Assembly: GCF_000687475.1 (NCBI RefSeq) | Contig: NC_057320.1 | Location: forward strand, 3,410,001 to 3,474,000 | Length of the DNA: 64,000 nt | Direction of reading: 5' to 3' | DNA from: Ustilaginoidea virens | Taxonomy: Eukaryota; Ascomycota; Sordariomycetes; Hypocreales; Clavicipitaceae | Part shown: positions 49,445 through 51,581 of the stretch, in pieces | Layout: every line of letters starts with the position of its first letter | Position numbering within the stretch: position 1 is the stretch's first letter | Translations under genes and position numbers: made by a program | Notes under the pieces: generated by a model | Told to the model about the DNA's origin: nothing | Database searches by the model: none | The model's input: only the letters and a program-made list of their open reading frames with translations

Positions 49445-50318
49445 CTAGGCAGCCTCTTGCTGCATCGTCTCCCGAATCGTCTTGGCAGTGCCAGCCAGGT
49501 CGGTTATCTTGGCCTTTGGATTCTTGCCGTGGTAGTCGGCGATGGCTGCCTTGATGGCGTCTTCGGCGAGCATGGAGCAGTGTACTGCAGCCTGTTAGCC
49601 GAAACTGTCCCCAAAGTGAAAACCTGTGGGCGAGACGTACGCTTGACGGGGGGCAGGCAAAGTTCTTTGGAGATGTCGACATTGCGAATCTTTGAAGCAT
49701 CCTCCACTATTCTTTGGGTTAGTTGCAAGTGGTTTCTGAGAGTAGTCGGGCACCTCCGGGTCGCAATCGTTCATCCATCATGACTCGTGGCGGAAACGGA
49801 AGATGCGTGAACGACTACTGTGGGAGACAAGAAACGGGGCATCAAGGTAAATCAAACTTACGCCGCATGCCCTTGACGAGTTCGGTCAAGTAACTCGAGC
49901 TTGCAATTGCGGACCCACATCCAAAAGTCTTGAACTTGGCGTCGGTGATTGTTCCCGTCTCCTCGTCCACCCTGATTTGCAGCTTCATAACGTCGCCACA
50001 GGCGGGAGCGCCAACGAGCCCTGTGCCGACAGCGGGATCCTTTTTATCCATGGAGCCTGGGTTTCGGGGCCGGCTATAGTGGTCGAGCAGTGCAAGGAAT
50101 ATATGTTAGCTTGAGGCTCCAAAACGCTCCAAAACGTTCCAAAACAGCAGATGAAGACCCTGTCGCATCCAGCATGTCCCGCTGATGCGCTTTAGGCGGG
50201 TACACTCATCTTTGTCATGATAAAATCTGCGGCCGGCCGTTTGAGGAACGATGGCGGCGCTGACCATGGGCAAAGGCGTTGCCCGGATTGCGCGAAGCGG
50301 CGCTCTTAGCGAAAACAT
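49445..50318 (-). CDS. ISU1: Mitochondrial iron-sulfur cluster scaffold protein; contains an AT-AC intron
   Basis: Isu1 is the U-type scaffold on which [2Fe-2S] clusters are built in the mitochondrial matrix before transfer with the help of Hsp70. Exons 50,318-50,210, 50,089-49,862, 49,706-49,641 and 49,584-49,445 give 180 residues. Residues 1-30 are an Arg/Ala-rich presequence. Cluster ligands are Cys67 (GAPACGD), Cys94 (TFGCGSAIASSS) and Cys137 (LHCSMLAEDA) with His136 beside it. The Hsp70-binding motif LPPVK is at 130-134, ending at an exon edge. Intron 1 (50,209-50,090, 120 nt) begins ATGAGT and ends CAC. Only this AT-AC excision restores the invariant YHDK/VLDHYSRPRN; no GT-AG pair does. 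The other introns are GTAAGT and GTACGT types. Confidence 0.93.
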
Positions 50319-51581
50319 GTTGTCGGTTGGTGGTTGTTTGTGTTGAGTAGATGAAACGGTTCGCGGTGAAGCTCGAGGCCGGATGGCAATTTCTCGAGGC
50401 CGGATGGCAGTTTCTCGAGGCCGGATGGCAGTTTATTTGATGGATCTAGGATGACGGAGGAAAGTTGCGATGTGGCTGGAGAGAAAGTCCAAGGGTTGTG
50501 TTGTATAACGTGCGATTGGGGAAAAAGGGGGGGGGGGAGGAGAAAATGATGCGGGTGGCAACGGGCGGCGTGGTAAGATGGATGGATGAATGACTGTGGT
50601 TGGGTAGGCGGTAGGTAAGCAAGGGCTCGGCATAACCCAGTGCGACGGAATACCGAGATTGATAAGGAGGAAACACCGGGAGCCCGGCTCATTGCACAGT
50701 ACACGCACGGTGAAAAACGGCCAATCAGAAGGACCCGTTCATGAAACACTGTGTGATGCCGCGATGACGCATGGGCTTTGGACAGTGCGGCCTGATTCTT
50801 TCGGGCTTGGCGGATCGTCTCATCTTACTCCAGCCTCGATGTCCGAAGGCAAGTCCGAGACAGAGACAGCATCGGCTTTTCGATTTGTTGAGTTGAATGT
50901 GCGGACAGATAATAGCCGACCATCAAGAGCATCGGGAAAAGACGTCCTCTGAACTTGCTCTCCGAGAAGCATCGTTGCACGCCCTCTTTCCTTTTTTTTT
51001 TTTTTTTTTTTTTTTTTTCCCTCTTTTTTCCTCTTTTTTTTTTTGGAGACTTCGTTTTTCAACACAACACACTGTGCTCCAAAGACACGGTCCCGCATGG
51101 CAGGTACCTAGCAGGTACCTAGCAGGAAGTAAATAGTAAGTGCTTTGACACCTGCTTAGTCGCCGCCACCCCTGATTCTTCAGGCAGTGCCTAGTGTGCG
51201 GAATCCCCAGGCGCCCAGCCGACAACTTGCGGCGCGACGCCGTCCCGTCCATCTTATTGTGCGACGTTGAATAAGCCACAACCAACTCCATCTCGTGTCA
51301 ACAGCCTTGGCCGTGAGGAGCACAAGAACCTCGACTCCCCCGTGCCTTGTGGAATTGTCCAGGCATAGCTCGTCGCTCACCGCCGCTCATCACTCATCAA
51401 GGAGGAGGTTTCGGCTGCAACTCGAGGGACTCTGGTCCCTCGTCATGGTCTCGTCTCCATCGCCAGTGCAGCTCGTCGTGTCGCCCCCCTCGTCCCTCAA
51501 CCTCGCCGTCCTTCTGCCCCTCGACCCGTCGCTCCATCACTTGTCTCCGTTGCCGCCAAGCGGCAGCTAGCCATCGTGGCC
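50319..51581. other. Divergent promoter region between ISU1 and the dipeptidyl aminopeptidase gene
   Basis: Holds the 21-bp triplicate listed separately, a G run near 50,528-50,537, a T-rich run near 50,992-51,044 and a duplicated AGGTACCTAGC (about 51,101-51,123). No gene is seen. Confidence 0.45.
50372..50430 (+). repeat. Three tandem copies of a 21-bp unit upstream of ISU1
   Basis: CTCGAGGCCGGATGGCA recurs at 50,372, 50,393 and 50,414, a 21-bp period, with nearly identical spacers. It starts about 54 bp upstream of the ISU1 start codon. Possible 5'-UTR or promoter element; no known factor site is recognised. Confidence 0.9.

Follow-up and report, generated by a model that had tools for sequence, protein, structure and literature searches.

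Gene structure of the ISU1 locus

The 64-kb stretch of Ustilaginoidea virens DNA analysed here, referred to as the window, carries on its minus strand a gene for the iron-sulfur scaffold protein ISU1, with four exons and three introns, the first of which begins with AT and ends with AC. The features of the locus are as follows:

50318 to 49445, minus strand: ISU1 gene, from the ATG at 50318 to the stop codon ending at 49445
50210..50318, minus strand: exon 1, mitochondrial targeting region and YHDK, ending ...GACAAAG in phase 1; genome match to residues 1-36
50090..50209, minus strand: intron 1, AT-AC, 120 nt, with a unique junction at a site interrupted or read through in relatives
50204..50209, minus strand: 5' splice site of intron 1, ATGAGT, U2-like except for the A at +1
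50105..50109, minus strand: presumed branch site of intron 1, CTAAC, with the branch A at 50106, overlapping the in-frame TAA of the retained form
50090..50095, minus strand: 3' splice site of intron 1, TTGCAC
49862..50089, minus strand: exon 2, VLDHYSRPRN...ELVKGMR
49707..49861, minus strand: intron 2, ordinary GT-AG, GTAAGT...CTAAC...AATAG
49641..49706, minus strand: exon 3
49585..49640, minus strand: intron 3, ordinary GT-AG, GTACGT...CTAAC...TGCAG
49445..49584, minus strand: exon 4 with the stop codon

An earlier note on this DNA had placed an AT-AC intron at 50090..50209 of the minus strand in ISU1, and both its coordinates and its bases (ATGAGT at 50209-50204, TTGCAC at 50095-50090) proved exact. 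Excision of the intron leaves a 543-nt coding sequence for an ISU protein of 180 residues, with a predicted joint at 50210/50089 that reads GACAAAG followed by TGCTCGACC. Introns 2 and 3 both have CTAAC and G-T at +5/+6, and intron 1, with GAGT at +3 to +6 and a CTAAC whose branch A lies 16 nt from the last base, carries the same kind of signals as these two, its terminal bases excepted. Two sets of tandem repeats were also seen at the locus. Three 10-bp repeats at 50116-50145, directly upstream of the branch site, may explain the length of intron 1 relative to that of the Metarhizium-like P0121 described below, and three near-perfect 21-bp repeats, CTCGAGGCCGGATGGCAGTTT, lie at 50372-50434, directly upstream of the ISU1 start codon. 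An Rfam scan of the window gave no matches.

The junction between exons 1 and 2

In-frame junctions were enumerated for introns of at least 40 nt, with GT, GC or AT donors from 60 nt past the start codon onward and AG or AC acceptors no further than 60 nt into exon 2. Exactly one of the 80 junctions obtained, the AT-AC junction 50209..50090, yields YHDKVLDHYS, which bears out the claim that excision restores YHDK-VLDHYSRPRN in phase. Shifted AT-AC junctions were part of the same enumeration, none of them giving this sequence. VLDHYS (or LDHYS) is kept by none of the 22 in-frame GT-AG (7) and GC-AG (15) options, in agreement with the earlier view that no GT-AG alternative works.

The joint is present in P0001, a 179-residue ORF on a 1166-nt JGI contig, which reads YHDKVIDHYSRPRN and has YHDK joined exactly to VIDHYS. 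This record comes from a relative and not from U. virens. Since all three introns are absent from it, P0001 is most likely derived from spliced RNA. Three other arrangements were considered and set aside: a GT-AC junction at GTACCC, which would give YHDKDELLDHYS, for its poor donor and its conflict with P0001; a junction removing GATGAG...CACTG, which deletes the V and again conflicts with P0001; and splicing of the opposite strand, where the complement reads GT...AT and not GT-AG.

Judged by densities in the window, ATRWGT would occur by chance at the point fixed by homology with a frequency of about 7e-4, and the corresponding figure for a suitably spaced CTRAC is about 1.4e-2. Frequencies as low as these argue that the arrangement of intron 1 is not accidental. 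Genome-wide, AT-AC-like patterns would by a rough estimate give about a thousand chance matches, which would swamp real ones.

The protein made by the AT-AC junction is also the most complete match to its family. The Pfam profile NifU_N aligns to it over positions 2-125 of 127 with 182.5 bits, compared with positions 11-125 and 163.9 bits for the GT-AG product that was tested, and the shortened start that results from retention of intron 1 matches no family in the profile comparison. The domain is covered as a whole, with its three conserved cysteine motifs (GAPACGD, FGCGSA and LHCSMLAEDA); the cysteines of ISU have a functional role. Across the junction and through YHDKVLDHYSRPRN, the product aligns without a gap to the ISU chains of structures 5t0v, 8tvt and 6w1d, which are of yeast and human proteins.

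The 5' end of the intron in relatives

Intron ends in relatives were derived from protein codons and not read from DNA. The first protein search scored 7997 proteins, and relatives were counted among the best 120 of these, giving 24 named clusters. These belong by name to Clavicipitaceae or Ophiocordycipitaceae, except for Cordyceps sp. RAO-2017 (P0011), which is counted among the 24 for its grouping in the tree. Family membership was looked up for Pochonia and Hirsutella and is presumed for the others. Among these best 120 of 7997 matches, the contiguous motif YHDK-VLDHYS is absent exactly at the intron site in 20 of the 24 named clusters and present in four (P0011, P0013, P0016 and P0019). 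YHDK is kept in 17 of the 20 (it is lacking in P0015, P0023 and P0035), and in all 17 the next residue is D. The continuations differ: YHDKDKCRPRN is found in Metarhizium humberi and M. acridum, YHDKDNRPRN in M. rileyi and Claviceps lovelessii, YHDKDESLF... in several Claviceps, and YHDKDIRPRN in Ophiocordyceps sinensis and Purpureocillium lilacinum. To judge from their codons, these models are what a GT-AG gene finder would put out on AAAG/ATRAGT or AAAG/ATATGT, either by using the inner GT or by reading on.

In the full set of 218 retrieved proteins, the YH.. motif was matched in 160, followed by V in 130, D in 22, I in five and N in three. The proteins with I are natural variants, and the three matches with N are to a C-terminal motif. 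The 22 with D comprise the 17 named clusters, three further contigs, Lipomyces and Lophiotrema. Since D is encoded by GA[T/C] and the exon ends in G, the first base of the intron in these relatives must be A, the second (T or C) being left free by the protein, and the donors of the clade fit ATRAGT or ATATGT. Misannotated models are enriched for odd ends, and the 22 of 22 should therefore not be read as a frequency; what it shows, at the level of codons, is the kind of odd end present. Four of the 24 named clusters carry the joined sequence in their models, and a GT-AG version of the intron in some relatives is therefore possible.

These same public models are what could be cited for an alternative in which the gene is truly spliced by GT-AG sites of this region, such as the GT within the donor together with TATAG, and makes a protein that lacks VLDHYS. 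Such models exist in Metarhizium and many other relatives, and the 22 GT-AG and GC-AG junctions do preserve the frame. However, none of them retains VLDHYS, the models vary between species at the site, as artefacts of prediction would, and the complete joint is found in P0001 and in the four named models, which leaves this explanation very improbable. Gene models based on GT-AG introns fail here, and as a result the ISU1 proteins deposited for many fungi associated with insects and plants appear to be faulty, lacking VLDHYS or containing translated intron.

The 3' end of the intron in relatives

In five proteins, P0121, P0124, P0125, P0213 and P0186, of which three are ORFs of the clade, the reading frame continues across the 3' end of the intron into LDHY. 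P0121 is Metarhizium-like and contains a whole intron of 105 nt, YHDK-DKWSSLSAASHQGPFFFFRSFTPFFAHIQLTCLILL-LDHYS; P0125 is Claviceps-like; P0213 is ascomycete-like by its position in the tree; and P0186, from Lipomyces oligophaga, has an intron of 78 nt and is a gene model, in which contiguity through the intron is assumed. The other four appear to be unspliced genomic ORFs in which the intron is still present. All five have Leu in place of Val, and since Leu codons, whose middle base is T, start with C or T, the last base of the intron would be C or T and not G. In P0121 and P0186, Asp after K implies that exon 1 ends in G, and hence that splicing would produce a Val codon. Each of the five also has a Leu-Thr pair that CTAAC could underlie, 12-21 nt from where the intron ends. 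The start of P0125, MSHFFPK, corresponds to DESLFPK of other Claviceps in a shifted frame, and fits a donor ATGAGTC.

Leu at the Val site is found in 57 of the 218 proteins, 47 of them bacterial-type IscU and ten mitochondrial-type. As Leu is natural in bacterial-type IscU, the argument for the 3' end is weaker in P0124, P0125 and P0213, where exon 1 is not seen. None of the 218 retrieved proteins that have both YH.. and the joined motif carries Leu at this position. Among the ten mitochondrial-type proteins with Leu at the site are P0005, P0023, P0035, P0126 and P0201, but these are spliced models in which the codon could be split between exons, and they serve as leads to further evidence on the 3' end, above all P0126 from Pyricularia. 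Followed through codons in this way, the comparison of intron 1 ends in related species that the earlier note had proposed shows that both an A at +1 and a last base other than G recur.

Copy number and retention of intron 1

When intron 1 is retained, the frame runs into a TAA stop at 50108-50106, after 70 residues; this is the TAA that, as had been pointed out, is put in frame by the AG before CTAAC. A protein search of the genome (37.16 Mb, eight contigs) matched the four exons of ISU1 only, so that as far as the search shows the gene is single-copy, with no second copy in sight for the job. Its protein is 88-91% identical to its four best matches.

The early stop might suggest a decaying copy of the gene, or an intron whose retention is the normal state and serves to switch ISU1 off. 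The record P0029 (130 residues, 13 members, 5 contigs), which starts with MDKK and has introns 2 and 3 joined, may derive from transcripts that retain intron 1, in which case retention could be frequent, or may simply be truncated. However, the frame and the cysteine motifs are intact, the identity to the best matches is high and no other ISU copy was found in the genome search, and we regard decay or default retention as highly unlikely. Regulated retention in addition to normal splicing of intron 1 is possible.

Distribution among ascomycetes

In a quick tree, the ISU protein of the window falls with Metarhizium, Pochonia and Claviceps in a fork of 21 rows with a support of 85, which includes three short stray fragments (P0128, P0152 and P0192). 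On this ground it is classed as clavicipitaceous-type. Outside the Sordariomycetes, the signature was found in two named species. Lophiotrema nucula (Dothideomycetes) reads YHEKDNPNVLSLLDHY, with a strong 5' end and a weaker 3' end, and Lipomyces oligophaga (Saccharomycotina) has both ends of the AT-AC signature. The donors inferred for Pezizomycotina are U2-like, whereas that of Lipomyces, read from YHAK-DIP in P0186 as AY-ATH-CC, has no U2-type G at +5 and is compatible with a U12 donor. No intron interrupts the site in P0153, apparently a genomic ORF, which lies on a 149 kb contig and is placed next to Xylogone in the tree. In two proteins from other eukaryotes, P0183 and P0130, read-through suggests an intron at the boundary between K and V. 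Its position would be one base away from that of ISU1 intron 1, of which it could be a shifted form, but it appears to be in phase 0 and GT-AG, whereas intron 1 is in phase 1 and AT-AC.

The most economical reading of this protein-based pattern, in which the two named species outside the Sordariomycetes are known from proteins, would be one old AT-AC intron. It is conceivable, although on balance we doubt it, that the intron had its AT-AC ends before Pezizomycotina and Saccharomycotina parted and was kept in several lineages afterwards by the fitness valley between G-G and A-C pairs. On this reading it may be a converted U12-type relic predating the loss of the minor spliceosome in Dikarya, as the U12-compatible donor of Lipomyces would allow.

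The tree of ISU core sequences also contains a set of 46 rows (SH-aLRT 95) that holds the window sequence and 34 rows of the type PRNPGS. Rows of this type come from Clavicipitaceae, Ophiocordycipitaceae, Pyricularia, Gaeumannomyces and Xylogone, and the PRNVGS type is found in Beauveria, Neonectria and many others. PRNVGS occurs in eight rows of the 46-row set, mostly short fragments, and P0121, which was omitted from the tree, is the lone PRNPGS row outside it. One possible cause of the split is a pair of old ISU lineages that underwent differential loss; the tree has few columns and long branches.

Which spliceosome removes intron 1

Searches of the genome for spliceosomal RNAs found U2 and U6 and gave no match to U11, U12, U4atac or U6atac, the minor families being without a positive control; in the control genomes none of the six families was matched, U2 and U6 included. 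Across more than 3000 genomes, a survey reports that neither Ascomycota nor Basidiomycota have convincing minor introns (PMC10639083). The consensus of the U12 donor is given as RTATCCTT (PMC2846911), and the U12 branch site, which lies shortly upstream of the 3' splice site, is near TTCCTTAAC (in part from PMC3033335). Intron 1 has instead the donor ATGAGT and the branch site CTAAC.

Removal by the minor spliceosome, as a U12-type AT-AC intron, would account for the terminal dinucleotides, and the Lipomyces donor deduced from protein is compatible with RTATCCTT at +1 to +6. However, neither the signals of intron 1 nor the ATRAGT or ATATGT donors of the clade are of this type, a TTCCTT near the end of the intron leaves too little distance to the 3' splice site and has no counterpart in the read-through proteins, and both the snRNA searches and the survey tell against it, so that this explanation is still less probable than those above. 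The earlier assignment to U2-type and not U12-type is upheld by the match to the signals of the two ordinary introns of ISU1, by the lack of detectable minor snRNAs in the genome search and by the recurrence of the ends in relatives. That sequencing or assembly errors turned GT into AT and AG into AC, which the earlier note had left open, is the least likely explanation of all, since two errors exactly at both ends, with the same signature in independent records of the clade and of many species, are not credible.

The first and last guanines of an intron pair with each other, and in S. cerevisiae this G-G pair can be replaced only by A-C (PMC8283771). In C. elegans, which seemingly has no minor snRNAs, AT-AC introns are probably processed by the U2-type spliceosome (PMC3033335). 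We conclude with considerable confidence that ISU1 intron 1 belongs to the U2-type (class II) AT-AC introns and would be removed by the major spliceosome by way of an A-C terminal pair. On this model, the major spliceosome would recognise the intron by positions +3 to +6 of the donor and by the CTAAC branch site; in the second step its first and last bases would pair as A-C in place of G-G; and cleavage would fall behind the first AC that follows the branch site, joining YHDK to VLDHYS. ISU is essential, as is known from yeast ISU1/ISU2. If a single end changed, giving A...G or G...C, the second step would presumably fail and splicing of this essential gene would break down, and the AT-AC state would be held until both ends change together or the intron is lost. 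This may be why the intron has persisted. The claim that such an intron is unusual in an essential gene stands as far as its odd ends are concerned, but the intron is not private to the U. virens genome: it recurs in the clade and has traces elsewhere in Ascomycota.

Comparison with known AT-AC introns

AT-AC introns make up 0.019% of annotated fungal introns (PMC7072748) and 0.03% in another fungal survey (PMC4084796); they account for 69 of 14305 junctions in Trichoderma longibrachiatum (PMC4324775) and are among the rare classes in Fusarium graminearum (PMC3577648). These surveys concern the same terminal dinucleotides, but the figures cited here are totals and do not follow a single conserved intron across families. 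A class of U2-type (class II) AT-AC introns has been described (PMC7072748). ISU1 intron 1 resembles them in its ends and in its U2-like donor and branch site, and would share with them removal by the major spliceosome. Vertebrate sodium-channel genes are an example of genes with such introns. Unlike these, ISU1 intron 1 is fungal and short; it interrupts a housekeeping gene with a mitochondrial product, and the lineage is one from which minor introns are reported to be absent. The kind of intron is therefore a known one, and its conservation in fungal ISU1 is apparently new, no account of ISU1 intron 1 or of a conserved AT-AC intron in fungal ISU1 having been found among the papers listed in searches of the open-licence PMC literature.

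The nearest parallel is experimental. Yeast double mutants with A as the first and C as the last base of an intron were reportedly tolerated in the work of Parker and Siliciano in 1993, as cited in PMC8283771. The terminal base pair is the same as the one proposed here, but in ISU1 it is natural, recurrent and in an essential gene. Intron ends compared across ascomycetes would reveal whether both ends change together and whether the A-C pair traps the intron. ISU1 intron 1 looks like the natural counterpart, in a core gene for which the genome search shows one copy, of this classic yeast experiment.
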